DNA of 22,200 nt, from the IMG/VR virus record IMGVR_UViG_3300033150_003044, positions 1-22,200 of that record; one strand, given 5' to 3'. Both the position numbers and the translations under genes were made by a program. The notes under the pieces are model-generated. The model saw nothing but the letters and a program-made list of their open reading frames with translations. It searched no databases and was not told the DNA's origin. Numbering within the stretch: position 1 is the first letter of the stretch; each line of letters opens with the position of its first letter. Shown here in pieces: positions 986 to 20,281 of the stretch. This DNA is from a virus.

Positions 986-1861
986 ATGGCAACGAAAGTC
1001 AATGCCAACACGTTGGGGGTCGTCGAGGTCGCACGACGCTTCAACGCCGAGAAACTGTTGCCCATCGCCGAGGTCCTGCCCAAGGGGACGTGGCGCAAGA
1101 TCAACGGCGGTGTCGAGCCGGAAGCCAGTCAGACCGAGGCGGTCGAAGAGGGCATCGGGTTCCTGGAGTCCTACAGCCAGGTCGACAAGGCCCTGCTGGA
1201 CATTTCTCCGAACCCGGAGGCGGTCCGGCAAAGCGAGGACGAAGCGTTCCTCGAAGGGCTGGCCCAGACCTGGGCGGACACGCTGCTGGCCGGCGACGCC
1301 GCGGTGGATCCGGAGACGTTCACGGGCCTGCAGCCGCGGTTGAGCACGCTGGCGAACCCGAACGTGATCGACCAGGGCGGGACCGCCGATGGGGCCATGA
1401 CCAGCCTGTACATCGTCCAGTGGGGCAAGAAGCGGGTGCACATGATCCACCCGACCAACAGCCCTGGTGCCGTCGAAATGGACGACCTGGGCGAGCAGAC
1501 CGTCACGGACGAGACCGGAAAGAAGAAGTTCCAGGCCATGGTCTCGCATTTCAAGTTCTACGGCGGCCTGTTTGTCCACGATACGCGGTGCATCAAGCGC
1601 ATCTGCAACATCGATCTGAGCGACATCACGGGCCTGGACAACAAGATCATCGAGGCGCTCAACGCTCTGCCGTACGGGGGGCGCGGCGCGATCCTCTACT
1701 GCAACGTGGGGCTGAAGACGGCCCTGGAGGTCCACGCCAAGGACAAGAGCAACGTGCACTATGGCGTGCGCAACCTGTGGGGCGAGCCGGTGACGGACTT
1801 CCGTGGCGTACCCGTGCGCCAGTGGGACTCGATCACGACGACCGAGGCGCAGGTGGCGTAG
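986..1861 (+). CDS. Phage major capsid protein
   Basis: This 291-residue protein is called the major capsid (coat) subunit, probably of the HK97 fold and of the type found with Bbp17 of Bordetella phage BPP-1. The call rests on its length, soluble mixed alpha/beta composition, an acidic N-terminal third, and above all its position directly before a clear Bbp16-type cement protein and a gp11-like adaptor. The segment with SHFKFYGGLFVHDTRCIKRI and the C-terminal VTDFRGVPVRQWDSITTTEA look like the domain that places subunits around the capsomer. The start is supported by AAGGAG (974-979) six bases before the ATG. No separate scaffold or maturation protease is seen upstream, where it would normally be. 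An intrinsic terminator lies just before the gene, so expression probably depends on antitermination or a nearby phage promoter. A different shell protein is the main alternative. Confidence 0.8.
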   Translation: MATKVNANTLGVVEVARRFNAEKLLPIAEVLPKGTWRKINGGVEPEASQTEAVEEGIGFLESYSQVDKALLDISPNPEAVRQSEDEAFLEGLAQTWADTLLAGDAAVDPETFTGLQPRLSTLANPNVIDQGGTADGAMTSLYIVQWGKKRVHMIHPTNSPGAVEMDDLGEQTVTDETGKKKFQAMVSHFKFYGGLFVHDTRCIKRICNIDLSDITGLDNKIIEALNALPYGGRGAILYCNVGLKTALEVHAKDKSNVHYGVRNLWGEPVTDFRGVPVRQWDSITTTEAQVA

Positions 1862-1893: not shown

Positions 1894-1909
1894 GCGCCGG
1901 TTGCGGCGC
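1894..1909 (+). other. Hairpin between capsid and cement genes
   Basis: gcgcc (1894-1898) pairs with ggcgc (1905-1909) across a 6-base loop in the 69-bp gap. No T-run follows. A short stem like this is easily found by chance in GC-rich DNA. It is noted because each longer gap of this operon carries one. Confidence 0.25.
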
Positions 1910-1930
1910 ACGTGGAAAGCGAGGTGTTTT

Positions 1931-2335
1931 ATGGCAGTCATGGATGTCAACGTCGAATTGTCGGATGCCCAGGCCGTGACGACGACGGCTGTATCCGAGA
2001 ACGTGATCGACTTGGGCGAAAACCAGGAGCATGCCGGTCAGGGCCTGCCCCTGGCCGTGCAGTGCGTCGTGGCCGAGGACTTCGCGGGCGGCACGAATCT
2101 GAAGGTCGCTTTGCAGCACAGTGATTCCGAAGGCAGTGGCTACACGGACGTACTGGTCGGCGAAACCGTTCTCACATCCGGTCTGAAGGCGGGCAAGGTC
2201 CTCCTGCAGGCGACCCTGCCGCCCGTGTTGAAGCGGTACCTGCGGCTGAACTACACGGCGACGGGTACGTTCACGGCGGGCAAGGTCAACGCGTGGATCG
2301 GCCCGGCCGACTCGTTCGGGCGGAACCGGAACTAG
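1931..2335 (+). CDS. Bbp16-family capsid cement protein
   Basis: This 134-residue protein should trim the outside of the capsid shell and stabilise it after expansion, as Bbp16 does in BPP-1. The family pattern is clear: an N-terminal strand with LSDAQAVTTTAVSENVIDLG, a central LAVQCVV and LKVALQHSDSEGSGYTDVLV, then LPPVLKRYLRLNYTATGTFTAGKVNAW near the C-terminus. Chain length and beta-rich composition fit. I chose the ATG at 1931 rather than an in-frame start 30 bases earlier, because the family begins at about this point and GAGGTG lies shortly upstream. It follows the capsid gene by 69 bp, the usual neighbour in this phage type, and was a main reason for calling the upstream gene the capsid protein. 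Confidence 0.88.
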   Translation: MAVMDVNVELSDAQAVTTTAVSENVIDLGENQEHAGQGLPLAVQCVVAEDFAGGTNLKVALQHSDSEGSGYTDVLVGETVLTSGLKAGKVLLQATLPPVLKRYLRLNYTATGTFTAGKVNAWIGPADSFGRNRN

Positions 2336-2415: not shown

Positions 2416-3225
2416 ATGGCGACGACGAGATTCGAGATTTGCAATATGGCGCTGGCCCGGATCGGGGCAGGGGACATCGTGGACTTCACGACCGCGCCGC
2501 ACGGCCCGGTGTGCGCGTTGTTCTACGACGAGGTCCGGCGGGCCGTGCTGCTCGAAGAGGCCTGGCGCTTTGCGCTCCGGGATGCGGACCTGGTCTGGAC
2601 GCCCTTGGTCGAGGGGGCGACGGCCACGGCGTCCGATCATCGTGTGAGCAAGTCGGCCGGCGACTTCGATGCGACCTGGCCCGGCGACACGGTGTACCTG
2701 TCGGGTGCGGGCCTGGTGGACGGTCATTATGCGGTCTCGGCCGTGGCTGGCGACGGGTCGTATATCGAGTGCCCGGCCCTGGACGACGACGGGGCGGAGG
2801 TGCTCGTCTACCTGGCTCGGCTGAACGGCGGGTCGGTCATGTTCGGGTACCCCACGTCCGCCCTGCCGGTGCCGCCGTTGCGCGTGGTGTCGGCCACGTC
2901 GTTTACGGGCCTGCCCCTGGCCTGGGCGTTGGAGGCCGACCGGCTGTATGCGGACTACGGCGAGGTGCGGGTACGGTACGTCGGCGATATCGAGGACACG
3001 ACGCTGTTTCCGGCCGTGTTTGTCCAGGCCTTCGTGCCTCGGCTGGCCGCGGCCATGTGCATGCGCATCAAGCCGTCGCAGGGCCTCTATGACCGGCTCG
3101 TGGTCGAGTATGAGCAGGCCCTGTTGAGGGCCCGGCAGGTCAACGCCGTTGGCTGGGACAACCCGTCGAGTGACGAGGAAGGCGGCACAGCGTGGTTGGA
3201 CGCGCGCGGTGGAGGGGTCGACTGA
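2416..3225 (+). CDS. Tail adaptor / tail tubular protein A (T7 gp11-like)
   Basis: This 269-residue protein should form the ring joining the portal to the nozzle in a podovirus tail. The N-terminus carries the family pattern: FEICNMALARIGA near residues 6-18, then YDEVRRAVLLEEAWRFAL near residues 36-53. The C-terminal third (YADYGEVRVRYVGDIEDTTLFPAVFVQAFVPRLAAAMCMRI) also fits the helical part of the ring protein. Residues about 77-135 form a beta-rich insertion with VYLSGAGLVDGHYAV and YIECPAL that is absent from the minimal family and could be exposed on the tail. GAGGGAG precedes the ATG. The gene lies between cement and nozzle genes, as in T7-like phages, but here separated from the nozzle by small genes and the spike. 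Its stop overlaps the next start. Confidence 0.82.
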   Translation: MATTRFEICNMALARIGAGDIVDFTTAPHGPVCALFYDEVRRAVLLEEAWRFALRDADLVWTPLVEGATATASDHRVSKSAGDFDATWPGDTVYLSGAGLVDGHYAVSAVAGDGSYIECPALDDDGAEVLVYLARLNGGSVMFGYPTSALPVPPLRVVSATSFTGLPLAWALEADRLYADYGEVRVRYVGDIEDTTLFPAVFVQAFVPRLAAAMCMRIKPSQGLYDRLVVEYEQALLRARQVNAVGWDNPSSDEEGGTAWLDARGGGVD

Positions 3226-3969: not shown

Positions 3970-4253
3970 TGGATGGGGAAGTCATCAAGGACAAGGCGAA
4001 GGAACTGGCACGGGCCCTGTTGGAGGCCCAGGTCGCCGGGCTGCGGCGCGCTATCGACCTGGCCCTGGAGGCCGGGGCGGTGAACGTCTCCGGGGTCGCG
4101 GCACGGCTCGAAGTCCAGCGGCGACTCAACGACGCCTGGGCCGTGGCCAACAGGGCCAATATGGACAGCGTGGACCTGCAGCGTGAGCAGGGCCGGGCGA
4201 TCCTGGGGATGCTCGTGGACCTGGTGGCCCAGGCCGCGTTGTCGGCACTATAG
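3969..4253 (+). CDS. Small helical protein of unknown function
   Basis: This 94-residue protein starts in a taATG overlap with the previous stop and has AAGGGGAG about nine bases upstream, so it is translated with the lysis candidate. It is almost entirely alpha-helical by composition (Ala, Leu, Glu, Arg), with a charged first half (IKDKAKELARALLEAQVAGL) and a hydrophobic C-terminus (ILGMLVDLVAQAALSAL) that could pack against a membrane or oligomerise. There is no cysteine, no signal peptide and no family I recognise. Position suggests a role in lysis or assembly, but nothing in the sequence decides it. Confidence 0.65.
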   Translation: MDGEVIKDKAKELARALLEAQVAGLRRAIDLALEAGAVNVSGVAARLEVQRRLNDAWAVANRANMDSVDLQREQGRAILGMLVDLVAQAALSAL

Positions 4254-4271
4254 GGAACCGTTGTATGAGAG

Positions 4272-4288
4272 TGCCGGCTGGCCCGGCA
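4272..4288 (+). other. Hairpin before the tailspike gene
   Basis: tgccgg (4272-4277) pairs with ccggca (4283-4288) over a 5-base loop in the 73-bp gap. No U-tract follows. It may be a processing or stability element. Confidence 0.3.
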
Positions 4289-4326
4289 GTGGCTCGAGGC
4301 GAATGCATGACAAAAGGAGTACTCCG

Positions 4327-6244: not shown

Positions 6245-8740
6245 ATGAACGTCGCACCGGTCATTCGTTCGTTCAACGCCGGAGAGCTGAGCCCGCTCTT
6301 GGACGGGCGCAGCGACCTGGCGAAGTACCAGGCGGGCTGTCGCATCCTGAAGAACATGCTGCCGACGCCCTACGGCGCGGCCGTGCGCCGTCCGGGCACG
6401 AAGTTCGTCGGCAAGTTGGGATTGGCCAACGCTGCGACGCGCATCGTTCCGTTCATGTACTCTACGGACGAGGTCTATATCTTGGTGTTTGTAGACGGGT
6501 ACATGCACGTGGCGGTCGCGGGCGACAATCCCAGGATGCTGGGCTGGGTGATTGACGACCTCCCCGCCTGGTCGCCGGGCAACACCTACTACGAGGGGGA
6601 GGTCGTCAAGGATGGCGGGCTTGCATACATCTGCGTCGTGGAGGAGACGTCGGGCACGACGAATCCCGGCTCCAGCTCCGACTGGCTCGACCTGTCAAGC
6701 GATGAACATGTCCAGGACCCTGGCGCACTGACGCAATACGATCGATGGCTGTACACGATTCCGACGCCGTACACGGACAGCGACCTGGCCGACCTGCAGT
6801 ACGCTCAGATCAACGACGTGATGTGGCTGGTGCACGCCAACCATCCCGTGCACAAGCTCATGCGGTATGCCGAAGACCGTTGGGTGTTGTCGGAGGTCGG
6901 GACGGTCGGCGGGCCGTTCGCGCCGGAGAACGACGACGAAACGATCACGCTGGCCTGCAGCGTGACGACCGGTACGGGGACGTTGACGGCGTCGAGCGGC
7001 ATCTTCACCGAGGCCATGGTCGGATCCCTGATGCGGCTGAGCCACTACCGTGCGCCCAACGCGGGCCATTCGTTTGTGTCGGCCGCCAACTGGTCCACAG
7101 GTGCGCCGCACACCACGGCCGAGCTGCGCGTTGTCAACGGCTACGAGGTGATCACGCATGGGACCTGGACCGGGTCGGTGTGGATTCAGGAGCGCATCGG
7201 GGCTGACGGTGACTGGGAAAACGTGCGGATGCTGTCGAGCAACGACGACAAAAACTACCTGATCACCGAGGATGCCGACGAGCCGAACCTCTACGTGCGG
7301 GCACATAGCGAAGCCAACCTGGACGCGTCATTCGGCATCAAGATTTCCAGCCTGGGCAACCGTGTCGACGGGATCGTCAAGATCACCGGCTACACCAGCC
7401 CGACCCAGGTCGCTGTCGACGTCGTGGAGGACCTGTACAGCACCGACCCGACACCGCACTGGGCCGAGGGAGCCTGGAACGGCCGGCGGGGGTATCCGGC
7501 TGCCATCGAGATCAGCGCCAATCGTCTGGTCTTTGGCGGCACGCCGGCCCAGCCGCAGACGGTCTGGCGGTCGGCCGTGGACGACTATACGAACTTCCGG
7601 ACCGGGACACGGGACGACGACTCGGACAGCTACACGCTGGCCTCGGGCACGCAGAACGGCATCCGATGGATCAAGGCGTTCGGCTCGGCCCTGGTCATCG
7701 GCACGCGGGGCGGTGAGCACATCCTGCGCCCGGCCGAGGGCGAGGTCCTGACGGCCACGAACCTGGACCAGGAGCAGCAGTCCAGCTACGGCAGCGCCGC
7801 CATCCAGGCGGTCATGCTGCACGACGCGGTGTTCTTCGTCGAGCGGGACGGCGACGGCGTGCGGGCCATGAAGTACCGGTTCGAGACGGACAGCTACGCC
7901 GCCCAGGACGCGACGATCCTGGCCGAGCACATCGCCGAGGTCGGGATCCGCTCGATTGCGGTCCAGACCCAGCCCATGGGCATCCTGTGGTGCGTCCTGA
8001 ACGACGGGACGCTGGCGTCCCTGACCTACGAGCCGTTCCACGACGTGCAGGCCTGGAGCCGCCACGACACGCAGGGGACCATCCTTGGCGTCGCCGTTGT
8101 GCCAACAACGAGTGAGGACCAAGTGTGGCTGGCGGTCGAACGAGCCATCGACAAGGACGATCCGCCGAACACGGCTGTCCTGCTCGAATACCTCGGTCCG
8201 CTAAAGAACAACACGGACATCGACCTGGTCTGCTGTGTAGACTCGGCAATGGAATACCATAGTGCAACGACGCCAAAAACCACCTTGCGGCTGGCTCGGC
8301 ACATCCGGGTATGGACAATCGACGTCCTGGCCGACGGTGTGGTCTACAAAGACCTCCCGGTCGACGCCTACGGTGACATCTCATTGCCGCAGTCTGCCGA
8401 GGCCAAGAACGTGGTAGGGGGCCTGCCGTTCGAGTCCATCCTGTGCCCCATGCGGGCGGATTTCTCGGCCCGGGTGGGCGACACGTCGGGCCGGGTGCAG
8501 CGGGCCTACGAGGTGGCCGTCAGCCTGCACGAGACCCAGAAGCCCGCCGTGGGGACCGTGGAGGGATCGTACCGCGACGTCGTCCTGGGCGCGGATGCCG
8601 AGGCCCTGTGGTCCGGCGTGCACGTCGAGCCCGTGGGCGACGAGTTCGACCGCGAGGGCCGGTTCTACGTCGTCCAGCGGAACCCGTTGCCGTTGACGGT
8701 TCGCAGCCTGGCCCTGCACCTGGAGTTCGCCGATGCCTGA
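6245..8740 (+). CDS. Tail nozzle / tail tubular protein B (T7 gp12-like)
   Basis: This 831-residue protein is the expected nozzle of the short tail, bound below the gp11-like adaptor. T7 gp12 is of similar size. The N-terminus is diagnostic of the large podovirus nozzle family: PVIRSFNAGELSPLLDGRSDL (residues about 5-25), then GCRILKNMLPTPYGAAVRRPGTKFVG. Further conserved-looking parts are ANRLVFGGTPAQPQTVWRS and the beta-rich C-terminal half with SLTYEP, expected for a propeller. Residues about 109-150 (AWSPGNTYYEGEVVKDGG...SSDWLDL) resemble a CBM5/12-like carbohydrate-binding fold inserted in the N-terminal region, and residues about 240-370 form another beta-rich insertion. No strong Shine-Dalgarno is seen before the ATG. 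The stop overlaps the next start by 8 bases, which suggests coupling to the ejection genes. Confidence 0.82.
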   Translation: MNVAPVIRSFNAGELSPLLDGRSDLAKYQAGCRILKNMLPTPYGAAVRRPGTKFVGKLGLANAATRIVPFMYSTDEVYILVFVDGYMHVAVAGDNPRMLGWVIDDLPAWSPGNTYYEGEVVKDGGLAYICVVEETSGTTNPGSSSDWLDLSSDEHVQDPGALTQYDRWLYTIPTPYTDSDLADLQYAQINDVMWLVHANHPVHKLMRYAEDRWVLSEVGTVGGPFAPENDDETITLACSVTTGTGTLTASSGIFTEAMVGSLMRLSHYRAPNAGHSFVSAANWSTGAPHTTAELRVVNGYEVITHGTWTGSVWIQERIGADGDWENVRMLSSNDDKNYLITEDADEPNLYVRAHSEANLDASFGIKISSLGNRVDGIVKITGYTSPTQVAVDVVEDLYSTDPTPHWAEGAWNGRRGYPAAIEISANRLVFGGTPAQPQTVWRSAVDDYTNFRTGTRDDDSDSYTLASGTQNGIRWIKAFGSALVIGTRGGEHILRPAEGEVLTATNLDQEQQSSYGSAAIQAVMLHDAVFFVERDGDGVRAMKYRFETDSYAAQDATILAEHIAEVGIRSIAVQTQPMGILWCVLNDGTLASLTYEPFHDVQAWSRHDTQGTILGVAVVPTTSEDQVWLAVERAIDKDDPPNTAVLLEYLGPLKNNTDIDLVCCVDSAMEYHSATTPKTTLRLARHIRVWTIDVLADGVVYKDLPVDAYGDISLPQSAEAKNVVGGLPFESILCPMRADFSARVGDTSGRVQRAYEVAVSLHETQKPAVGTVEGSYRDVVLGADAEALWSGVHVEPVGDEFDREGRFYVVQRNPLPLTVRSLALHLEFADA

Positions 8741-9191
8741 CGTGCGGATCATCCCATTCAAGGCCGAGCACTACCTGGCCCTGCTGGAGCAGGCGGACGT
8801 GGGCCCCCTGGCCAAGTCCAAGGCGTTCGTTCAGGAGCTGGAGGCCAACGAGGGCTACGCCTACACGGCCCTGGCCGGCGAGACGGTCATCGGCTGCGGC
8901 GGCGTCAAACCGTTCTGGCCGGGCGTCGGGGAGGCGTGGGCCGTCTACCCGAACGACCGGAAGGAGTACGCCATGGCCATCGCCAAGCAAACACGACTGG
9001 GCTTGATGTTCTTGATGCAGGAGCACAAGCTGCGTCGCGTCCAGGCCGTCGTACCCGTGACGTACGCGGTCGGCATGCGGTTCGTGCGGTGGCTGGGGTT
9101 CGAGATGGAGGGCCGCATGCGCGGCTACATGCCGGACGGCGGCGACGCCTATATGTACGCTTTGGCCACCGGGAGGGACGACCATGCTTGA
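8733..9191 (+). CDS. GNAT-like protein, gp13 position
   Basis: This 152-residue protein has the shape of a GCN5-type acetyltransferase: an N-terminal FKAEHYLALL, a central strand pair ETVIGCGGVKPFWPGVGEAW, a helix AMAIAKQTRLGLMFLMQEHKL, and the C-terminal strand-helix-strand FVRWLGFEMEGRMRGYMPDGGDAYMYAL. Such GNAT-like proteins are common between nozzle and internal core genes in podoviruses, at the place of T7 gp13. The usual acetyl-CoA loop (Q/RxxGxG/A) is not clear, so it may be a structural or degenerate member rather than an active enzyme. The gene overlaps both neighbours (8 bases each), indicating strong translational coupling within the ejection gene set. Confidence 0.75.
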   Translation: MPDVRIIPFKAEHYLALLEQADVGPLAKSKAFVQELEANEGYAYTALAGETVIGCGGVKPFWPGVGEAWAVYPNDRKEYAMAIAKQTRLGLMFLMQEHKLRRVQAVVPVTYAVGMRFVRWLGFEMEGRMRGYMPDGGDAYMYALATGRDDHA

Positions 9192-9684
9192 AGCGGCCAT
9201 GATTGCCGGGATCGTCGGCGGGGTCACGTCGGCCGTCGGGGCCTATCGGCAAGGTCAGGCGGCCCAGGCCCAAGCCAAACAGGAAGCCCTGTGGCACGAG
9301 TACAACGCGGAATTGAGCCGCAAGCAGGCCCTCGAGGCCGAGCAGCAGGCCCTGGCCGAGGCCCGCCGGCAGAAGCGGGCCGCCGACGAACAGATGGCAC
9401 GGATGCGTGCGGCCTACGGGGCCTCCGGGGTGCTCATGAGCGAAGGCTCGCCGCTTCGGGTCCTGGAGCAGTCGGCGGCCGATGCGGTCCTCGACCGCCT
9501 GAACCTCCTGCGTCGCGGGCGCCTGTCGAGCGACCAGTACATGGCCCAGGCGGCCCTGGACACCGGCCAGGCGGGCCTGTCGCTGATGCGCGGGCGGGCC
9601 GCCAAGCGCGCCTCGCGGTGGCGGACCGGATCGACGCTCCTGAGCGGCCTGAGCAGTAGTCTGACGAACTACTACAGAGGATAA
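9184..9684 (+). CDS. Internal virion protein, gp14-like
   Basis: This 166-residue protein is a candidate for the outer-membrane pore part of the DNA ejection conduit. Like T7 gp14 it starts with a Gly/Ala-rich hydrophobic helix (AAMIAGIVGGVTSAVGAY), followed by a long charged Gln/Ala/Glu coiled coil (residues about 23-75). After that comes a short conserved-type motif YGASGVLMSEGSPLRVLEQSAADAVLDRLNLLRRG. The C-terminus SSLTNYYRG is typical of such proteins. The start overlaps the GNAT-like gene, with GGGAGGG upstream. Function rests on this pattern and on position before two larger internal proteins. Confidence 0.75.
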   Translation: MLEAAMIAGIVGGVTSAVGAYRQGQAAQAQAKQEALWHEYNAELSRKQALEAEQQALAEARRQKRAADEQMARMRAAYGASGVLMSEGSPLRVLEQSAADAVLDRLNLLRRGRLSSDQYMAQAALDTGQAGLSLMRGRAAKRASRWRTGSTLLSGLSSSLTNYYRG

Positions 9685-9687
9685 GCC

Positions 9688-11373
9688 ATGCCGCGCATTC
9701 AACCGTACAAACCGCAGGTCAGCCCCGCCGCGGGTGTCGGGGCCGTGCGTGCGAATCCCGCGGCCATGAGCGATGCAGGAGCCGAACGGCTCGGCCGGGG
9801 CATGATGATCGCGGGCCGGGCCTTGAATCAGGTGGCGGATGACCTGGATGTGTTGCAGGGCTACATGGACCGTGTGGAGTTGAGCGAGGCTGCGCGTCGC
9901 CGCGACGAGCTGATGGTGGACACGTTCAGGCGCATCGCCGAGGAGCCGGACTACACACAGCATGAACGCATGTTCCACGAGGCCCTGGCCCAGCTTGACG
10001 AGCTCGGGCCCAAGAGTCGTCGGGCCGCGAACGCCTATCGCCTGCAAAACAACGACCTTCAAGCCTACTGGAAGTCCAAGCTCAACAGCCTGACCACGAG
10101 CCGCAAGATTCGCGTGATCGCGGCCGAGAACACCGTGGACGAGGAGCGTGGCGCCGAAATGCTCCGGGACGCGATCCGGGAGGGCCGCGAGGACGACGCC
10201 GTGCTGGCCAGGCAGCGGGCCCTGGACGCGATCGCCCGCAGCGAAGAGATGGGCCTGTACACGCCCAAGCAGGCCCAGGCGGCCCGCGAGAAGCTCGACC
10301 TGATCGAGTCCCGCGAACGGGCCTGGACGACCGCCTTGGGAGCCGAGAGCCTGGACGAAGGTCTGGCCGCGATCCGTGGGGCTGAGGGGCTGTCCGCGCG
10401 GGAGAAGGAGGCCCTCGAGAACGGCTTCCGCACGGAGTGGAACCGCCGCCAGGCCGACGCCCGCATCGCGAAGCTGCAGGCCGCCGAGCAGGCCGAGGCG
10501 GAGATCTTCCAGAAGCTGGTCGACGGGTCACTGCAGATGGCGGACATCAGCAGTTTCGTCGAATCCGGCGTGGTCGATGCCGAGACGGGCTACCGGTGGA
10601 CCCAGCGCCTGGCGGCTTACCAGGAGGCCCGGGCCAAGGGCGAGCGGGATCCCTTCCTGGTCACGGATCCGCGGGTCGAACTGAAGCTTCGTCTGGCGAT
10701 CCTGAACGGCGAAGAAGTCACGCCGCAGGCCATCTACGACGTTGTCGGCAAGGGCCTGTCGCTGCAGACGGCCAACACCCTGGTCAACACCCTCGAAGAG
10801 CGTCGCAGCAAGCGGGCGGCAGCCGAGCGCGTCGTCTTCGACCGGCCCGTGGTCAAGCGGGCCCTGGAGCAGATCGAGGCCCGCCGTCGTGCCGGGTATT
10901 TTTGGATCACGGGCGGCGGCGACGAAGACGACTGGAAGGACAAGGACTTCGAGGCGATCCGGGTTAACGACGCGGCCTACAACAACATCCTGAGCGATTT
11001 CGAGGCCTGGTGCCGCGAGAACCCGGACGCCACGGACTCGGACGTGTACGCCAAGCTCGAATCCCTGCTGTATCCGCAGATCCAAAAAGACGCCGTGGAC
11101 AAGGTGTCGCTGACGTTCGGCGACGCGGCCTGGCTGGCGGTTTCGCCGTTGATCGGCGGCGGTCGGCTGTTGTGGAAGCGGTGGAGGGCCCGCAGTCCGG
11201 AAGTGTCGGCAGCGGAGTACTGGCAGGGCCTGGGCAAGAGCAACCTGGCCAGGGACGTCATCGCCAACCTGGGCCCGGCCGAGCGGGTGTTGTGGGAACA
11301 ATACAAGGCACGCGGCGGAACCCCGGAAGGCTTCGTGAAGATACTGCAGGAGCAGCATGGGCAACAAGACTGA
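9688..11373 (+). CDS. Internal virion protein, gp15-like
   Basis: This 561-residue, mostly helical and strongly charged protein lies where T7 gp15 would, between gp14-like and gp16-like genes. The N-terminus (MPRIQPYKPQVSPAAGVGAVRANP) is of the short, Pro-rich kind seen in such proteins. After it come long helices (AERLGRGMMIAGRALNQVADDLDVLQGYMD and beyond) with TPR-like alternation of Ala/Leu and charged residues to about residue 330. No membrane span or enzyme motif is visible. AGAGGA precedes the ATG. It should form the periplasmic tube of the ejectosome with its neighbours. The 3' end overlaps the giant gene by 17 bases. Family assignment is by architecture and position, not by a signature motif. 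Confidence 0.7.
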   Translation: MPRIQPYKPQVSPAAGVGAVRANPAAMSDAGAERLGRGMMIAGRALNQVADDLDVLQGYMDRVELSEAARRRDELMVDTFRRIAEEPDYTQHERMFHEALAQLDELGPKSRRAANAYRLQNNDLQAYWKSKLNSLTTSRKIRVIAAENTVDEERGAEMLRDAIREGREDDAVLARQRALDAIARSEEMGLYTPKQAQAAREKLDLIESRERAWTTALGAESLDEGLAAIRGAEGLSAREKEALENGFRTEWNRRQADARIAKLQAAEQAEAEIFQKLVDGSLQMADISSFVESGVVDAETGYRWTQRLAAYQEARAKGERDPFLVTDPRVELKLRLAILNGEEVTPQAIYDVVGKGLSLQTANTLVNTLEERRSKRAAAERVVFDRPVVKRALEQIEARRRAGYFWITGGGDEDDWKDKDFEAIRVNDAAYNNILSDFEAWCRENPDATDSDVYAKLESLLYPQIQKDAVDKVSLTFGDAAWLAVSPLIGGGRLLWKRWRARSPEVSAAEYWQGLGKSNLARDVIANLGPAERVLWEQYKARGGTPEGFVKILQEQHGQQD

Positions 11374-14300
11374 CAACACCATCCGGTTGGAATGGCCCCG
11401 GCAGGCGGCGGGCAATCCGCCGGAGGAGGTACGCCTGCGCGACCTGCAGGAGCCCCGGGCAGCCGATCCGACCGATGTGCCGCCGGTGACGCCGTTGCAA
11501 CAGACGCGCGCCCCGGTGGCTCCGGGGCCACAAGACCCGGACGCCTGGCTGCGTGAACAACTCGGGGGCAAGGAGGATCCCGATCAGTGGCTGGTCACCG
11601 CGTATCGCCGACTCCAGACCAGGCGAGCCTTAATGGCAGTCTGGCAGGCGTCATTCTTCGATACGGGCCTGTGGAAGAAGCTCCAGGAGTCGGTCGAGGC
11701 CGAGCGGTCCCTCTACGGGGACGAGGACCCCAGCCGGGGCCCGGCCCTCTCGAAGGAATCCCTGCTTGCGCAGGTTCGGGACAGGACCTGGCCCGAGATG
11801 GTCTTGGCCGAACACCGGGACCTGTATGATGCGCTGAGCCCGTGGAAAGCCGAGGCAACGCCGAAGCACACGCCCGGCGTGCGTGCCACCAACGTCCTGT
11901 ACCTGTCCCAGTTGGCCGACCTGGACATGGAGCAGGCCGAGGTGGTCTACGACGACCTGGTGCGCCACCTGTGGGGCGGCCGGCAGCCCAAGGATATCCG
12001 GCCCCTGACCCGATGGATTCGCCGCGCGTACACGGATCACTGGATGCGCCGGAACGGGATCAACCCGGTTTTATTCCGTGCCGCGACGCGGTTGGCCACG
12101 GGCGACGGCAGCGTCGACTGGAATCACGTCCTGGAGAACATCCCGGACGAGGCGAAACCGGAGTTTTTGAACTACGTGATGATGGTCACGCCCCCGAAGG
12201 ACCGGTCGTTCGGCCGCAAGCTGGTCGACCAGTTCATGCGCGGTGTGTGGCGGTCGGCGGCCAACGTGCGGGATTTTGCAGTGGCCGACGAACCACTCCT
12301 GTCGCCGGAGGTTCGGCAGCGGTACGAGACCCTGCGTTCCGAATGGGAAGCCGAGCACGACAAGTCGCTGCCGGATGTCGACCTGTTGTGGTCGGTCATG
12401 GGTTCGTGGCACCCGTTGGTCGACTCGTCCGTGATCCGCGAACAGGCGGGGATCACCGAAGAGCAGGAGAACGCGGCGTACGCGTTGTATCAGCAGGCCA
12501 TCCACCAGGTCGCCGATGCCCGTGCGTTTCAGCGCGAGACCGTCGAGGCCACGTGGCAGGCCGACCCGATCGAGGGTGAAGGGCTGCTGCAAAGGGCCGC
12601 GATCGGCACGGCCGGCCTGCTCCCGAACGTGGCCGGCTCGGCGGCCGCCGGAATCGGCACGGCGGGGGTCGGGACGGCGGCTTATTGGTACGTCCAGGTC
12701 GCCCCCGACATGTACTTCAATCTGCGAGAGTTGGGTTTCGACGACGAGACGGCACGCGGTGTCTCGTCGGTCGCGGCCATCCCGGTCGCACTCATCAATA
12801 CGTTGCAGGTCCGGCAACTGGCCAAGCTCGGTCCGGCGGCCCGCGAGACGGCCGGGCGTGCCGCCGAACGCGGCATCCTGCGATACCTGGGCTCCAAGGC
12901 GGCCGACGCCGTCAAGACCTACGGCGAGGAGATGGCCGAGGAGACGCTGGAGGCCGTCGTCGACGGCATGGCCGTCGCCGTGGCCGATGCCCTGAGCGAG
13001 ACGAATCCGGAAATCGACTGGCTCAACGATGTCATCAAGCCGGAGATCGAGGGCCTGAAAGAGGCCGCCCTGGCGATGCCCCTGCTGGTCGCCGGTGGCA
13101 AGGGCGTCGAAATCACGTCCGAAGCCCGCATGATCAACGAGATCCGGCAGGCCACGGGAATGACCCCACCGCAGGCCCGCGGCGTGATCGAAGCCATGCG
13201 GCAGAACAAGCCGTTCGTGTTTATCCCGAACCGCGTCTGGGCGAGCATGAGCCGGGCGGACAAGGACGCGGTCCTGAAGGCCTTCGGCTCGTCGGACGCC
13301 AAGGAGCAGTCCCGCATTCTTCGGGAGGTGTCCGAGCGGTACCTGGCCGAGAACTATGCCAAGGCCGAACAGACCGTCAAGGCCATCCTGGAAGCCAACG
13401 GAGTAGAGGGTGTCACGGTCGAAGGGGCCGAGTTGGGCAAGCAGGGTGACGAGCTGGTGATGGGGGCCACCGGCCTGAACGAAAAGGGCCGGTTGGTCGT
13501 TCGCCTGGCGTTCTCGGGGTACGATCCGCAGACCCGTGCGTTCATGACGACGATCCCGGAAGGAGTGGCCGGGCCGGACACACAGACGGGGGCTCACGAG
13601 GCGTTTCACGTTTTGGAGGCCGTCTTGGACCCTGACGAGCTGGCCGTGATCGACGCCCACTTCAAGGGGGACCGGGAAGCAGCGGCACGGGCGTTCGGGA
13701 GATTCGTGGCCGAGTACCGGGGCGAAGTCCAGGCGGACGCCTTGGCCAAGGCCTGGGCCAAGGCCGCGGACCTCCTGGCCAAGGTCAAGGCGGCCTTCGT
13801 CGTCAGGCAATTCCGCAGCTATGCGGATGTGTTCAGGGCCATGGTGGAGGGTCGGGTCAAGAAGGGTCGGGCGGACACGGCCAAACCGTCCCGGCAGGGC
13901 GGGCCGCAATACGGCAGGATTCCCGGCAAGCCGATCCGGTTTGGATCGCAGGCCGCTACGGAAATCCAAGGCGTCGCAGAACCCCGACAGGCCGAGCCTG
14001 TCCCGGAAGTCGAGAGGGCCGCGGCGACCGAAGCTGCCACCGAGGCTGAACCCGTTGGGCCCGAACCCGGTCCGGAGAGCGAGCAGGCAACCGAGGCTGG
14101 GCCGCAAGCCGCGTTCGAGACGCAGGCGGCCGTGATGGAAGCTCCGCTGGCCCAGGCCGAGCAGCAAGGCGAACCGGAACGCCCGGCGGACGCGGGCATG
14201 GAGGCCCCGCCGCCTGCTGAACAGCCGGTCGCCGCCGCGGTCGCCGAGCCGCAGGCCGTCCTGGGGGCGGAGCCCCAACAAGAGCCGCAGGCAGAAGGGG

Positions 14301-17300
14301 AGCCGGAGCCACAGCCCGAATCGGAACCGTTGCCGATCAAAGACGAGCCCCTGAGCGAGGGCAAGCGCAGGTATCTCCTGGGCCGGGTGAGCCGGGAGAT
14401 CAGGGAGCACCCGCTGTATCAGCAATACGTCTTGACTGCGGCTGAGAACCTGGAAGAAATATACGACATCGCCGGCGGCTCGGTCGACTGGAACCGCGGT
14501 GAAGTGCGCGACAGGGTGGATGGCCTGCCACCGCACAAAAAGGCGCTCCTCCGCAGGCGCATGCCCCAGATCAGAAAAGGATTCAGCATAGCGGACTGGG
14601 ACACGGTCGCGGACTGGCTTCTGGAACGCTTCGGCATCGAGATCCGCGGTGAAGACGAGATGGTCGAATGGGTCCTCGACCTGAGCGAGAAGCTGAAGAA
14701 GGATCGGTCTGGAATCTACGTGAACCTGTTGGGCGAGGCGGTCAAGCACGATCCGTATTTTACCTGGCTGGTCGAGCAACGGGAAAACCTGCAATGGAAG
14801 GGGGAGGGGACGTCGACCACAAATCCGTATGCGCTCAAGGAGAAGGCCGAGACGTACCGGGCCGCCGCCGAGAAGGTCACGGATCCCAAAGAGGCCGAAG
14901 TCCTGCGACGCACGGCGAACCGGCTGGAACGCGAGGCGTTCAGGGGTTACCCGGAGCTGGAGCAGGATCTTGTGGTTGCGGACGACGTGGATTTCACGGA
15001 AGCCGACACCTGGATCGAGCCGGAGGACGCTCCCTTGCCGGAGACGCCGGACGACGGGATCCCGTTCGAGCGGCGTCGGCAAGCCCTGTGGGAGGCGTTC
15101 GGCGACAAGGCTAAAGAGGCCGTGCGTGCGGCTGAGACGGCGGCGGACATCCTCAAGGCGAGTATGCGGGAGGGGCAGAAGCTTGGAGCCGAGCCCTGGC
15201 AGACGGTGGACCTGGCGACCCGCGCCATGCGGAGTAAGGGCGTTCCGTACACGGTGTACGCCGACGCAGACGGCCGGGCCCACATCGAGACCGAATCGGG
15301 GATCCGGCCGATTTCCGGTGGGCCCGGTCGGCCGCAAGGCCTGCGACCCGTTCAGGCGTTCGATGGACAATCGGCCGTGGCGTTGGAATACGAAGCCGTC
15401 GGCGGTGTCTGGCCGGTACGCCCTGCTGCGTTCGAGACGCGGCCTGCGGAGTTTTTCGCAAGCCGCGAAGATTTCCAGAAGGCGGTAGCCTACGCCATGC
15501 TGGATGCGGCACGCGCCCGGGTGCAGGCCCGGAGCGATCTGCGGCGGATCCGGCAGGCCCAGGTTCGGCCCCTGAAGCGCAGTATCCGGGTCCGGGTCCG
15601 GGAGGTCACGGGCAAGACCAAAATCGGTGACCTGTACTACGAAGAGGAAGCCCTGCGCCAGGCCCTCCGCAAGGCGGCACGGGCCGCCCGGTCGGCCTAC
15701 GCAGCCGGTCGGCGTGACCAGGCCGAGAAGGAGCGTCAACGTCGCCGGGCCCTTACCAAGAAGCGCAAGGCCGTCCGCGAGGCCAAGGCACGTATGCGAA
15801 AGGCCGTGCAGGCCTTGACCGCCCCGATCCCCGGAAACGTCCACTGGAGCTACCGGGAGGCGATCTCGGCCCTGACGGCCGGGATCGACCTGCACCGTCG
15901 GGCCGAGAAGACCCTGCACGCCCGCCAGCGGACGGCCGAATACCTGAAGCGCCATCCTGAGAAGATCGCCGAGGTCCCGCGCAAGGTCCTGGAGGCGATC
16001 CAGAGCAAGCCCCTGAACGACTACAGCCTGGAACAGCTGGAGGCGTTGGCCGCGGAACGGCAACGGCTCATCAAGCTGGGCCGGTTGAAGTACGATCTGT
16101 GGATCAAACACCGCAAGCGGGTCGATGAGCGGCTCCGCCACGCCGCCATCGATGCCATCACCGAAGGCCGCGGCGTTCAGGTACGGCAAGGGGTGGTTGT
16201 CGGACCCGCGGCCGAAACCCTCGCGGACAGGGCCAAGAAGACCAAGGCCAAAATCGACGCAGCGACCCTGCGTCCTGTGCGGCTGTTTGACATGCTGGAG
16301 CACGGCCACGGCACGTTCGACGGCCCGATCACGCGCATGTTGTACGATCAGGTCAAGCAGGCGAAGGCCAAGAAGCTCCGATGGGTGGATCGCCGAACGG
16401 CCGAGCTGGTCGTGGCCATGGAGTCCCTGGGCATCACCTGGCGGCAGTTGACGGCGCCGGTTCATCTGCCGGATGTGCCGACGGCCCAGGGGCAATGGAC
16501 CCTGCAACGCATGATCGGCGTGTATGTGTACCATCAGAATGCGCGGGCCGACGCCGCCTTGCGTTTCGGCAACCGGCTGAGCGAATCCCAGATACGGGCC
16601 ATCATCGACCGCCTGACGCCGAGCCAGAAGGCCCTGGGCGACTGGATCATTGCGGCCTGTGAATGCCGCAAAGGCCCTTTGTTCCGGGCGGTGGCCGAGA
16701 CGACGAACGTCGTGCCTGAAGAAGAGGAAAACTACGCCCCGATGCGGCGCGTGAATGCCGAGTTCGGCACGCCGGAGGAACAGTTGATCACGGAGATCGA
16801 GCACCGGGCGGCCCTGAAGAAGGGGTACGCGGACCGGGGGTTCAGCTATGCACGCAAAGACATCCCGGCCGAGTTCCAGTCGCCGATCGACCTGGACGTG
16901 GTCAAGATTTTCATCCAGCAGGTGGACGTGCAGGAGCATTTCATCGCCCTGGCCCCCGTGGTCAACCGGCTGCATCGCGTGTTCCAGAGCCCGGAGGTCC
17001 GCACGGCCATCAAGCAACAGTTCGCAGACGCGTTCAACAAGGCCGTCCGGGACTACATCAACCGCGTGGCGAATCCGAACATCTACAAGACCTACGGCGA
17101 CCTGGACAACCTGTCGCGTTGGCTGCGGCGCAACGTGGCCACGGCCTACCTGAGCTTCAACGTGTTGACCTGGGCCAAGCAGTTACCGTCCCTGGCCCTG
17201 TACCTGCGCGACGCGGGGGTCGGGCACCTGTTGGCCTCGGCCCTGGAGTTCGCCAGAGGCCCGCGAGCCCTGATGGAGACGGTGGCCAAGAAGGACCCTA

Positions 17301-18058
17301 CGATCAAGCATCGCCTGATCGAGCGGGAGATCGAGGAAATGTACGCCGCGACCGAGGGCAGCGGCCGATGGCTCGACCGGGTGCGACGGGCGGGTATGGC
17401 GCCGATCCGCCTGATGGACAGCGTGGCGGTCACCATCGGCTGGAATGCCGTCTACCAGGCCAACCTGGAGGAACATGGCGAGGCCGAGGCCGTCCGACGG
17501 GCCCGCAACGCCACGATGCGAACCCAGCCGGCGGCCGCGCCGGAGGACCTTCCGGGCCTGTACACGACCAGCGAATGGCTCAATTGGTCCCTGATGTTCA
17601 CGAACCAATTGAACCAGTTATACAACATCGCACGATACGACCTGCCGCGCGACGTGGCGCGAGGCGGCTGGCCGGAAGCGGCCCGCAGCGTGGCGGGAAT
17701 GGTCATTGCGGCCCTGCTGATCCAGGCGATCGGGGGTGACGAACCGCCCGAAGAGCTCGAAGGCATGCCGGGCTACATCGCCTGGGCCGCGTTGGTCCAG
17801 CAGGTCAACGCGATTCCTTTGATCGGGTCGGCGGCCATGGCATATCGCAAGGGGTGGCGACGGGACAACCCGATCCTCCGTGCCCCGGCCGAGACGATCG
17901 CGGCCCTGCTGCGCATGGACTGGATGCGTGCGGCCAAGAGCGGCGTTCACACGTTGGCCCTGCTCGAAGGCCTGCCCCTGGTCGCGGCCGAGCGGACGTA
18001 CCGGGCGGTGGCCGAAGGCGAACCCGGCGAGTTGATTGGCAGACGAGGCAAGAAATGA
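11357..18058 (+). CDS. Giant polyvalent ejection protein with HExxH metallopeptidase (gp16-like)
   Basis: This 2233-residue protein takes the place of T7 gp16 (about 1318 residues), the largest ejected core protein. Visible parts in order: a helical N-terminal region (1-400); a Gly/Ala-rich hydrophobic stretch at about 406-490 (GTAGLLPNVAGSAAAGIGTA) able to enter membranes; a zincin motif HEAFH at 747-751 followed by acidic helices; a Pro/Glu/Ala/Gln-rich linker at about 865-1000; helical regions; a very basic coiled coil at about 1435-1495 (EKERQRRRALTKKRKAVREAKARMRKAV); and a C-terminal region from about 1880 (WLRRNVATAYLSFNVLTWAKQLPSLALYL...) resembling the large polyvalent protein-associated domain 38 found at the end of phage polyvalent proteins. 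No lytic transglycosylase motif was recognised. AGGAG precedes the ATG, which overlaps the gp15-like gene. Ejection role is likely; peptidase activity is inferred from the motif. Confidence 0.78.
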   Translation: MGNKTDNTIRLEWPRQAAGNPPEEVRLRDLQEPRAADPTDVPPVTPLQQTRAPVAPGPQDPDAWLREQLGGKEDPDQWLVTAYRRLQTRRALMAVWQASFFDTGLWKKLQESVEAERSLYGDEDPSRGPALSKESLLAQVRDRTWPEMVLAEHRDLYDALSPWKAEATPKHTPGVRATNVLYLSQLADLDMEQAEVVYDDLVRHLWGGRQPKDIRPLTRWIRRAYTDHWMRRNGINPVLFRAATRLATGDGSVDWNHVLENIPDEAKPEFLNYVMMVTPPKDRSFGRKLVDQFMRGVWRSAANVRDFAVADEPLLSPEVRQRYETLRSEWEAEHDKSLPDVDLLWSVMGSWHPLVDSSVIREQAGITEEQENAAYALYQQAIHQVADARAFQRETVEATWQADPIEGEGLLQRAAIGTAGLLPNVAGSAAAGIGTAGVGTAAYWYVQVAPDMYFNLRELGFDDETARGVSSVAAIPVALINTLQVRQLAKLGPAARETAGRAAERGILRYLGSKAADAVKTYGEEMAEETLEAVVDGMAVAVADALSETNPEIDWLNDVIKPEIEGLKEAALAMPLLVAGGKGVEITSEARMINEIRQATGMTPPQARGVIEAMRQNKPFVFIPNRVWASMSRADKDAVLKAFGSSDAKEQSRILREVSERYLAENYAKAEQTVKAILEANGVEGVTVEGAELGKQGDELVMGATGLNEKGRLVVRLAFSGYDPQTRAFMTTIPEGVAGPDTQTGAHEAFHVLEAVLDPDELAVIDAHFKGDREAAARAFGRFVAEYRGEVQADALAKAWAKAADLLAKVKAAFVVRQFRSYADVFRAMVEGRVKKGRADTAKPSRQGGPQYGRIPGKPIRFGSQAATEIQGVAEPRQAEPVPEVERAAATEAATEAEPVGPEPGPESEQATEAGPQAAFETQAAVMEAPLAQAEQQGEPERPADAGMEAPPPAEQPVAAAVAEPQAVLGAEPQQEPQAEGEPEPQPESEPLPIKDEPLSEGKRRYLLGRVSREIREHPLYQQYVLTAAENLEEIYDIAGGSVDWNRGEVRDRVDGLPPHKKALLRRRMPQIRKGFSIADWDTVADWLLERFGIEIRGEDEMVEWVLDLSEKLKKDRSGIYVNLLGEAVKHDPYFTWLVEQRENLQWKGEGTSTTNPYALKEKAETYRAAAEKVTDPKEAEVLRRTANRLEREAFRGYPELEQDLVVADDVDFTEADTWIEPEDAPLPETPDDGIPFERRRQALWEAFGDKAKEAVRAAETAADILKASMREGQKLGAEPWQTVDLATRAMRSKGVPYTVYADADGRAHIETESGIRPISGGPGRPQGLRPVQAFDGQSAVALEYEAVGGVWPVRPAAFETRPAEFFASREDFQKAVAYAMLDAARARVQARSDLRRIRQAQVRPLKRSIRVRVREVTGKTKIGDLYYEEEALRQALRKAARAARSAYAAGRRDQAEKERQRRRALTKKRKAVREAKARMRKAVQALTAPIPGNVHWSYREAISALTAGIDLHRRAEKTLHARQRTAEYLKRHPEKIAEVPRKVLEAIQSKPLNDYSLEQLEALAAERQRLIKLGRLKYDLWIKHRKRVDERLRHAAIDAITEGRGVQVRQGVVVGPAAETLADRAKKTKAKIDAATLRPVRLFDMLEHGHGTFDGPITRMLYDQVKQAKAKKLRWVDRRTAELVVAMESLGITWRQLTAPVHLPDVPTAQGQWTLQRMIGVYVYHQNARADAALRFGNRLSESQIRAIIDRLTPSQKALGDWIIAACECRKGPLFRAVAETTNVVPEEEENYAPMRRVNAEFGTPEEQLITEIEHRAALKKGYADRGFSYARKDIPAEFQSPIDLDVVKIFIQQVDVQEHFIALAPVVNRLHRVFQSPEVRTAIKQQFADAFNKAVRDYINRVANPNIYKTYGDLDNLSRWLRRNVATAYLSFNVLTWAKQLPSLALYLRDAGVGHLLASALEFARGPRALMETVAKKDPTIKHRLIEREIEEMYAATEGSGRWLDRVRRAGMAPIRLMDSVAVTIGWNAVYQANLEEHGEAEAVRRARNATMRTQPAAAPEDLPGLYTTSEWLNWSLMFTNQLNQLYNIARYDLPRDVARGGWPEAARSVAGMVIAALLIQAIGGDEPPEELEGMPGYIAWAALVQQVNAIPLIGSAAMAYRKGWRRDNPILRAPAETIAALLRMDWMRAAKSGVHTLALLEGLPLVAAERTYRAVAEGEPGELIGRRGKK

Positions 18059-18342
18059 CGGCACAGCGGAAACGACAGGTGATCTCCTGGGCTCCCTATG
18101 TGACGGCCATCGTGACCCTCGGCACGGTCCTGATCGGCATCGGGTCGTTCTACCGGACGGTGTCGGCCAACACGCAGGCGATCCAGGCCAATACGCGGGC
18201 CATTCAGGCCAACAGCGCGCGGATCCAGGCCATCGAAATCCACCAGGCCACCCAGTCGGCCGATCTGAAGAATGTCCAGGCCCTCCTCGAAGAGGTCCGC
18301 CGTGACGTCAAGACGATGCTCCAGCGCACGGCGGACCGATAG
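18055..18342 (+). CDS. Single-span membrane protein with coiled coil (i-spanin-like candidate)
   Basis: This 95-residue protein starts in an ATGA overlap with the giant gene's stop. It has a basic N-terminus (TAQRKRQ), one hydrophobic span (about residues 11-31, WAPYVTAIVTLGTVLIGIGSF), then a heptad-like repeat (NTQAIQANTRAIQANSARIQAIE) that continues as a charged helix to the end. Topology should be N-in, with the coiled coil in the periplasm. This is the layout of inner-membrane spanins, and T7 also places its spanin among the last late genes. Holin-associated or host-surface proteins of the same layout exist, so the assignment is tentative. That it is a real gene is supported by the overlap and the clear repeat. 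Confidence 0.65.
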   Translation: MTAQRKRQVISWAPYVTAIVTLGTVLIGIGSFYRTVSANTQAIQANTRAIQANSARIQAIEIHQATQSADLKNVQALLEEVRRDVKTMLQRTADR

Positions 18343-18473
18343 CGTGGTCGCTCGCTGCCGTTGCGGCCTGCTCCCAGGCACCGGTCGGTCCGGTCATGTT
18401 CCTTCCCCACAGTCCCGTAGGGGCGGAAGTTCCAAAGCCGGAAAACAGGCGGGACGGCCTCCGAAATGAACGA
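18343..18473. other. Gap between phage module and R-M genes
   Basis: No gene is supported here. Two small adjacent stems (gcctg/caggc, 18366-18379; accgg/ccggt, 18380-18394) could form, but no T-tract follows and I do not call a terminator. No tRNA gene or obvious duplicated attachment core was recognised. Confidence 0.5.
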
Positions 18474-18502
18474 TTGACACGCGATTCGGATGACAGTTGA
18501 AT
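18474..18502 (+). promoter_or_regulatory. Sigma-70-like promoter for the R-M operon
   Basis: A perfect -35 TTGACA (18474-18479) is followed after exactly 17 bp by TTGAAT (18497-18502), four of six matches to the -10 consensus. It lies about 75 bp before the hsdM start codon and points into it. This supports independent transcription of the R-M genes rather than read-through from the phage late operon. Confidence 0.6.
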
Positions 18503-18577
18503 GGCCCCGGTGGACATTTCCCCAAGGGTGCTATTGATGCAGGGTTCAGGAACCGCAAACCGAACGGGCGAAAACGC

Positions 18578-20281
18578 ATGGCCAACAAGAACAACCACAA
18601 AGCCCTGCCTGCCGCCGATGCGGCGCAGGCGGCCAACCTCGGTTTCGAACGGCAATTATGGCGTGCCGCCGATAAGCTCCGCGGCAACATGGACGCCGCC
18701 GAGTACAAGCATGTCGTCCTTGGCCTGATCTTCCTCAAGTACATCTCTGACGCCTTCATGGAGAAATATCACGCCCTGAAGAACGATCCCCTCGCCGACC
18801 CCGAGGACAAAGACGAATATCTGGCCGACAACATCTTCTGGGTTCCGCCGGAGGCCCGCTGGGACTACCTTCAAAAGAACGCCAAGCGTCCCGAGATCGG
18901 CTCACTCGTTGACGACGCCATGGCCGCCATCGAGCGTGACAACAGGGTCCTCAAGGGCGTCCTGCCCAAGGACTACGCCCGCCCGGCACTCGATAAGGCC
19001 CGGCTCGGCGAGATTATCGACCTCATCGCCACCATCGGCCTGGGCGATAAGGAGAGCCGCCAACGCGACGTGCTCGGCCGGGTCTACGAGTACTTCCTCG
19101 CCCGCTTCGCTGCGGCCGAGGGCAAGCTCGGCGGCCAGTTCTACACCCCCCAGTGCGTGGTCAAGCTCCTGGTCGAGATGCTCGAGCCTTACAAGGGCCG
19201 CGTCTTCGACCCCTGCTGCGGATCCGGCGGCATGTTCGTCTCAGCCGTGAAGTTCGTTCAGGCCCACGCCTCCGGTAACGGCAACGCCAAGAGGTCTAGG
19301 GTCCGCCTTCAGCGCGACATCTCGATTTACGGCCAGGAGTCCAACTACACCACCTGGCGGCTGTGCCTGATGAACCTGGCCATCCGGGGTATCGACGGCG
19401 ACATCCAATGGGGAGACTCCTTCCTCGACGATAAGTTCAAGGACCTCAAGGCCGACTTCATCCTCGCCAATCCGCCTTTCAACATGGAGGACTGGGGCTA
19501 CTCCAAGGTGAAGAACGATGTCCGCTGGCGACGCTTCGACCAGCCTAACGGCAACGCTCAGTTCTCCCTGCCCCCCGGTGGTCGGCGCAAGCAGAAGGAC
19601 GACTCCTTCGTTCACGTGGACGGCGGCAACGCCAACTACGCCTGGATTCTCCACTTTCTCCACCACCTCGCCCCTCACGGCACTGCCGGATTCGTCCTAG
19701 CCAACGGCTCGCTCACCAGCAACACCTCGGGCGAAGGCGAAATCCGCAAGGCCATCATCGAGGCCGACCTGGTGGACTGCATGGTCGCCCTGCCGGGCCA
19801 GCTTTTCTACTCGACTCAGATCCCGGCCTGTCTGTGGTTCCTGACGCGGGACAAAAGGAACAAGCGATTTCGGGACCGATGTGGCGAAGTCCTGTTTATC
19901 GATGCCCGCAAGATGGGCCGCATGGTCGATCGTACCCACCGTGAGTTGGCCCAGGAAGATATTGAGCGGATTGCCCGCACCTATCATGCTTGGCGCGGTG
20001 AAAGGGACGCTGGCGACTACAAAGACGTTCCCGGCTTCTGCAAAGCCGCGACTATCGAGGACATCCGTAAACACCACCACATCCTCACCCCAGGCCGCTA
20101 CGTCGGCGCGGCCGAGGTGGAAGATGACGGCGAGCCATTCGAGGAGAAGATGAAGCGGCTGGCCGCGCAGTGGTGGGAGCAAATGGCCGAGGCCGAGGAA
20201 CTCGACGCCACCATCTGTCAGAATCTGGAAGCGCTGGGGTTCTCGATTCCAGCACTATCGCAAAAAGAGAAGCAAAGATGA
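18578..20281 (+). CDS. hsdM: Type I restriction-modification DNA methyltransferase subunit (N6-adenine)
   Basis: This 567-residue protein is the modification subunit of a type I R-M enzyme. With a specificity subunit it transfers a methyl group from S-adenosylmethionine to adenine N6. The N-terminal helical domain is typical ([38 protein letters not shown]). The methyltransferase core has the SAM-binding motif [13 protein letters not shown] beginning at Asp211, preceded by [18 protein letters not shown], and the catalytic NPPF at 298-301 ([13 protein letters not shown]). All key residues are present and the length is in the normal range. I chose ATG 18578 because family members start shortly before the FERQLW segment; the upstream ribosome site is weak (gggcgaaaa). 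A promoter lies just upstream, and the stop overlaps the next ATG (ATGA), so the two genes are coupled. The matching hsdS and hsdR are not in the window. Confidence 0.95.

Follow-up and report, generated by a model that had tools for sequence, protein, structure and literature searches.

Metallopeptidases have already been described within large phage proteins of the ejection and polyvalent types. Residues 700–1000 of Bbp10 from phage BPP-1 form a seed of the CLCA_X metallopeptidases (Lenart et al. 2013, PMC3650047), a zincin-like metallopeptidase (MPTase) is called the commonest polyvalent-protein domain (Iyer et al. 2017, PMC5512222), and a Bbp10-like protein of 2986 residues is reported from an Antarctic phage (PMC9239159). 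A review of ejection proteins presents them as mosaic, and no word in it begins with protease, peptidase or polyvalent (PMC8954989). Since Bbp10 (2013) and the polyvalent MPTases (2017) are on record, the protein described here is a further, diverged example of a published combination. It comprises 2233 residues and is encoded at positions 11357..18058 (+) of a complete 22.2-kb virus record (IMG/VR IMGVR_UViG_3300033150_003044, positions 1 to 22,200), here termed the window. The protein very probably serves an epsilon15/BPP-1-like podophage as its gp16-type ejection protein. That it is of the polyvalent type, with a strongly diverged zincin as passenger, is the reading we favor with fair confidence; it overlaps the first two of the alternatives weighed below.

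The protein contains two conserved regions, core A (residues 412–577, 12590..13087, +) and core B (residues 1472–2228, 15770..18040, +). Bbp10 (2052 aa) resembles it in its place after a gp15-like gene, in both cores (hidden Markov model (HMM) E 3e-61 for core B and 5e-19 for core A) and in an HExxH motif (HESGH 797) in the cassette between them; unlike the window protein, it has a canonical zincin (score 242 versus 36) and no Pro/Glu linker. Bbp10 was reached through a relative, L011 (23% over 272 residues), and not by tblastn with the window protein. The BPP-1 protein encoded upstream, Bbp11, is annotated with a transglycosylase, and none was found in the gp15-like protein of the window by domain and profile library scans. 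AF_016 (2213 aa) of Pseudomonas phage AF is similar in length, gene place and core B (22% over 831 residues), and differs in bearing LPD22, LPD23 and two HExxH motifs. The phage-type polyvalent MPTase proteins are likewise large and multi-domain, are thought to be delivered at invasion, and combine HEXXH with a Glu in the second helix; the window protein has no match to PF18818, and three residues after HEXXH it has Glu, where one widespread phage clade has Asp (PMC5512222). A further comparison is N4 vRNAP (3500 aa), a giant ejection protein that combines an HExxH domain (C1) with a low-complexity tether and a lipid-binding front part (preprint PMC12633501); its RNA polymerase domain was not found in the window protein by the same library scans. 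The nearest relative is L012, a 1395-codon frame on an IMG/VR contig, with 38% identity in core B and a sister position in the core-B tree. Unlike the window protein, it has neither HExxH nor a Pro/Glu linker, and core A was not detected in it.

Probable ejection-protein identity and the two cores

The gene is a single uninterrupted ATG frame, and the claim of the original prediction, made from the sequence alone, that its product is about 70 percent longer than T7 gp16 agrees with the T7 length of 1318 aa. Within its own family such a size is ordinary: open frames reach 3227 codons, and Bbp10 and AF_016 are of comparable length. The designation as an ejection protein is supported by gene order, by a core found also in the large proteins that phages AF, HU1 and BPP-1 encode at this position and, weakly, by the fold of core B. 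The gene shares its first 17 bases with the gp15-like frame and closes a gp14–gp15–gp16 row downstream of the tail tube genes, in which gp15 is assigned by position only. In the 10 relatives inspected, gene order matches that of the window wherever the genes were found (tail tube B in nine, gp14 in six, gp13 in four, the capsid gene in three and gp15, by similarity, in none; some loci end short upstream), and in all 10 a frame of 479–759 codons ends no more than 70 bases from the start of the gp16-like frame.

With tblastn, the C-terminal part of the protein was matched in five records of the phage collection, two of them copies of phage AF. Core B is common to the window and to AF_016, LS06, zth2-2 and vir555 (by tblastn), as well as to IMG/VR contigs; it is also shared by HU1 and Bbp10, which were reached through relatives and HMM rather than directly. 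From a three-sequence core-B alignment, 39 loci were collected in the viral contig collection, and seven more phage records with core matches were added, one of which (L054) matched through its front part and not through core B. Further BPP-1-type copies and rows matching only the ART region of L011 were left out. Since the members were picked by core matches, the choice of the family is independent of HExxH. Core B, a helical and conserved C-terminal body of ~750 residues, was detected by HMM in 51 of 51 family entries, and the Gly/Ala-rich core A, which occurs with or without a zincin, in 27 of 51; the models were built from the same proteins (the window is among the seeds for core A), so these counts are not independent. 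Whether the query was the complete protein, its zincin region or just its C-terminus, scans of the viral contig collection returned no close relatives, and neither did two scans of the genome contig collection. The phage collection contained no near DNA relative of the window, and tblastn with the zincin region produced only three chance rows there (E 3 to 9).

A structure model of core B (786 residues, predicted local distance difference test (pLDDT) 78) was compared with known folds. Upon re-alignment of 895 chains, podophage core or ejectosome proteins took ranks 1, 2, 3 and 5 (PhiM1 8vb2, Z 6.3; E1004 9vvp, 5.2; T7 9jyy, 5.1; and 7eyb, which we take to be T7 as well, 4.6), with 186–212 residues aligned. 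Judging from their length, these chains are of the gp16 type, and four core-protein rows at the top of such a model-based list would be hard to ascribe to chance. Against the likeness stand the Foldseek search of the PDB, in which no match was significant (the lowest E was 0.56, and 7eyb, labelled 'core proteins', came third with 0.99), and the Z values themselves, all <8, which by the yardstick of the tool may reflect a mere common arrangement. In BFVD the model had 107 matches at E <=0.001, and among the 50 listed several were named polyvalent, ART-PolyVal or crystallin-motif phage proteins. The core-B profile found nothing convincing among PDB sequences (best E 0.05).

The only Kyte–Doolittle peaks of at least 1.3 are at residues 2108–2128 and 2141–2161. 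Together with the GRRGKK end nearby, they resemble the C-terminal helices and basic end residues of T7 gp16, as given in the review (PMC8954989). The Gly/Ala stretch that had been called membrane-active is present in terms of composition (residues 405–500, with 20% Ala and 14% Gly), and none of the peaks falls within it.

The putative zincin-like module and the variable cassette

The motif HEAFH is present, as predicted, at residues 747–751 (13595..13609, +; predicted zinc ligands H747 and H751, predicted base E748), and is the sole HExxH of the protein, with 0.048 expected by chance per shuffled copy. It is located in a putative zincin-like module of about residues 648–786 (13298..13714, +), indicated by hhalign to the zincin profile of the relatives and by the order of elements in an AlphaFold 2 (AF2) model. 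The predicted third zinc ligand, E774 (13676..13678, +), is invariant together with H747, E748 and H751 in 13 of 13 rows in two alignments, and a D-x-x-T ahead of HExxH also lines up with the zincins of the relatives. Against a profile of 25 relatives' zincin regions, from which the window was left out, residues 601–870 reached an hhalign probability of 62% (E 7.4e-5, score 35.8), and stretches of the protein lacking HEAFH did not exceed 8.4%. None of 300 shuffles that kept HEAFH attained that score (maximum 25.4); two HEVQH sites scored 24.4 and 17.7, and none of 17 other open frames with HExxH, whether coding or noncoding, scored above 23.5. Replacement of HEAFH by alanines lowered the score to 17.7, which means that the motif itself contributes much of the signal.

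Several results weaken the zincin assignment. The leave-one-out scores of the 25 profile members are 120–253, compared with 35.8 for the window; the score thus exceeds all negatives tried, as befits a remote match, and is far below true members. The family zincin HMM (HMMER) gave only 4.4 bits, Pfam MPTase-PolyVal (PF18818) does not match the window protein, and plain HMM, Pfam and NCBIfam searches detect no zincin. The AF2 model of residues 591–870 has a mean pLDDT of 54, with 67–87 in blocks over HExxH and the following helices and <50 over the strands after residue 98. Foldseek found nothing in the PDB at E 0.001 (best 1.1) and no zincin among the 50 rows listed, a null result that is uninformative because the confidence of the model is low. 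In the re-alignment, lethal factor reached Z 3.9 (138 residues, model 64–220) and PPEP-3, presumably a zincin, 3.8; eight other rows rank above both, headed by a RecBCD chain (Z 5.8). Not all of the conserved residues near the motif are retained, as in the EGxAPS stretch behind the second helix, and the window reads HEAFHVLEA, with Ala where the CLCA_X pattern HExxHxxxD has Asp.

The zincin of the original prediction is supported only as a remote, diverged member: the order of elements (helix, three strands, HExxH helix, helix) is that which Iyer et al. describe for the MPTase domain, and the second helix supplies a Glu, but the model is poor and the HMM score low. On the sequence evidence we read the module as a strongly diverged, putative, remote relative of the family zincin. 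In our judgement a zincin fold is likely to be present, and its catalytic activity is evenly balanced between yes and no.

Two further loci were noted around the motif. The only other exact HEAFHVLE in the viral contig collection is in a 2080-codon phage frame (L057:5482-11718) with a phosphoribosyltransferase-like match below cut-off; its zincin region had no match in phages or plasmids and found only itself in the viral contig collection, and the HEAFHVLE region scored 22.4 against the family zincin profile, which is no match. Across the records of 24 relatives, of which 19 bear an HExxH in their ejection gene, PF18818 matched no ejection gene and one separate gene, on the record of L026 (G009:C1:40419-40604, minus strand), whose ejection protein is devoid of HExxH.

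Counting the window, 26 of the 50 proteins of the family contain HExxH, versus 1.19 expected from shuffles. L049, the same protein as L048, was dropped from this count, and the near-copies L021/L022 (in the HExxH count), L029/L030, L032/L033 and L053/L056 were kept. HExxH is absent from nine other proteins, namely three large or middle proteins from the ejection position in each of BcepC6B, phiV10 and HTVC024P. In a quick core-B tree of 47 proteins (LS06_main, L044, L049 and L022 dropped; L013, on the same contig as L010, represents it), 25 carry HExxH and 22 do not, and the label changes five times, compared with a mean of 15.8 on shuffling (none of 500 shuffles gave so low a number). The window is the sole bearer in an eight-member group (support 85), with L012 as its sister (98). 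The refutation named in the original prediction, His/Glu not conserved in homologues, therefore applies by half: both are conserved in the zincin-bearing relatives, but the closest relatives are devoid of any HExxH. Since the seven group-mates are without it, the module was either gained in the line of the window or lost around it. Either a separate acquisition or relaxed constraint would be in keeping with the divergence of its zincin, and an independent gain appears rather doubtful.

The distance from core A to core B varies from 230 to 2040 residues across the family, and in the eight core-A entries without HExxH it is 230, 264, 265, 291, 339, 392, 895 and 911 (the value of 323 obtained for LS06 is artefactual, owing to a stray match to core B). 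Pfam scans of the region before core B in seven relatives detected ART-PolyVal above cut-off in L018 and L011 and below it in L034, RadC/JAB above cut-off in L014, GNAT below cut-off in L018 and L028, LPD14 below cut-off in L034, and nothing in L020 and L047. The L014 protein (L014:6236-10100) is a related ejection protein without HExxH, with its RadC-like JAB domain (E 2e-12) before core B. In five of the closest relatives (L012, L013, L017, L025 and L026), no Pfam domain was above cut-off. Because the domains before core B differ between relatives, the middle is regarded as an exchangeable cassette of the polyvalent type. The polyvalent architecture that had been proposed is thus supported through some relatives with the same cores, which carry ART-PolyVal, RadC/JAB, LPD22/LPD23 (AF_016) or a weak GNAT, but in the window protein domain library scans recognized no second domain, which leaves one putative enzymatic domain only.

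The long Pro/Glu linker is real: residues 864–993 (13946..14335, +) consist 73% of Pro, Glu, Ala and Gln, and the window alone among 51 family entries has a 100-residue stretch with at least 60% of these residues. The supposed LPD38-like end, on the other hand, was not recovered, with no LPD38 match in the whole protein (E up to 1) or in 33 core-B sequences (E up to 0.1); six-frame searches of G000 and 24 records with LPD38 (PF18857) were empty, as was their control.

Neighboring genes and the nature of the record

The genes for the capsid, Bbp16-type, tail tube and gp13- and gp14-like proteins all point one way. The major capsid protein is of the epsilon15 gp7 type (986..1861, +; NF045672, PF20911) and is followed by a Bbp16-type protein (1901..2335, +; PF21190), presumably with a cement role, and by tail tube A (2416..3225, +; phrog_394). 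Tail tube B (6245..8740, +; phrog_376, E 1e-171) precedes a GNAT-type gp13-like protein (8733..9191, +; phrog_4177, phrog_308), a gp14-like internal virion protein (9184..9684, +; PF24072, phrog_418) and the 561-aa gp15-like ejection protein (9688..11373, +), for which no significant database match and no sequence relatives were found.

Between the two tail tube genes lies a right-handed beta-helix protein (4183–6159), in which an internal start near 4327 yields the signal-peptide-like MRTMCLILMAMSSMAFA; no relative was found among the fetched loci at E 0.001. The frame at 3343–3969 begins with two CxxC pairs, followed by two hydrophobic stretches and a lipobox-like LLGMVGCGG, and is possibly a lysis or membrane protein. 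An antisense open frame of 1648 codons (12071–17017, minus strand) inside the ejection gene is probably a side effect of GC-rich codon usage.

Both ends of the window bear bacterial-type genes, with the capsid-to-ejection genes in between: a nicotinamidase at the left edge (1–603), and HsdM and an AlbA_2/RecG-C frame at 18497–22200, the latter running off the right end. The 2233-aa protein and HsdM are separated by a 95-aa protein in which a single hydrophobic segment was identified by eye. Such an arrangement looks like a provirus fragment, a remnant or an assembly join. Neither terminase nor portal was recognized in the frames scanned, which did not include every small open reading frame; this suggests a fragment or remnant of a provirus, and the element may be defective or cut, a point against the reading favored below. 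We identified no attachment site, since 561–1000 and 18041–18600 share no exact direct repeat of at least 12 bases and the window has no tRNA.

Possible roles of the module

In the reading we favor, that of a polyvalent ejection protein with a passenger zincin, synteny and the weak fold likeness of core B suggest that cores A and B probably sit in the capsid core, exit via the tail, and help to build the DNA conduit across the envelope. The variable cassette between them would hold the diverged zincin-like module (H747, E748, H751, E774), tethered by the Pro/Glu-rich linker, and the absence of the module in close relatives points to a passenger delivered with the DNA. Its most likely use, which we suggest only tentatively, would be to cut its own polypeptide and so detach its N-terminal half from core B, for which the linker that follows the module may offer an accessible cleavage site; cutting of a host protein would come a close second. 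Iyer et al. propose self-cutting for polyvalent metallopeptidases and also discuss host targets; they mention P1 DdrB as processed, and N4 vRNAP, with its MPTase, as packaged unprocessed, which weighs against self-cutting (PMC5512222).

The module could instead be a delivered effector, an active zincin that cleaves a periplasmic or cytoplasmic host protein at entry, with the linker as a mere tether. The scaffold does without the module in the 22 of 47 tree rows that are free of HExxH, the distribution is patchy, the cassette holds other effector-type domains in some relatives, and the possibility is named in PMC5512222. Set against these points are the strong divergence of the module and a cassette in the window that has no second recognized effector domain; on balance we consider this role unlikely.

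A decayed or structural zincin, its fold kept as a noncatalytic spacer or scaffold, or the whole element a dying prophage remnant, is less probable again. The score far under true members and the partial loss of EGxAPS-type residues near the motif would agree with decay, as would the bacterial-type flanks and the terminase and portal genes not recognized in the frames scanned, but all four key residues are retained and the 6.7-kb frame has no stop. Least probable is a chance HEAFH in an ordinary helical region: plain HMM, Pfam, NCBIfam and Foldseek searches find no zincin, alanine replacement of the motif drops the score to 17.7 and the L057 protein with the same HEAFHVLE scores only 22.4, but few such motifs are expected per shuffle, the hhalign score beats the 300 motif-keeping shuffles and the 17 other HExxH open frames, and the third Glu and the preceding D-x-x-T align.

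The wider issue is whether metallopeptidases of phage ejection and polyvalent proteins serve for self-cutting, act on a host target, or do neither. The window protein alone adds one diverged example, and a family whose scaffold is constant while the module is present in some members and absent from others allows the role to be tested by comparison of the two sorts of relatives. Were the zincin of the window protein gained independently, ejection proteins would acquire metallopeptidases unrelated to one another as interchangeable cargo, and L012 together with the window protein would form a natural with/without pair for probing the role of that cargo.

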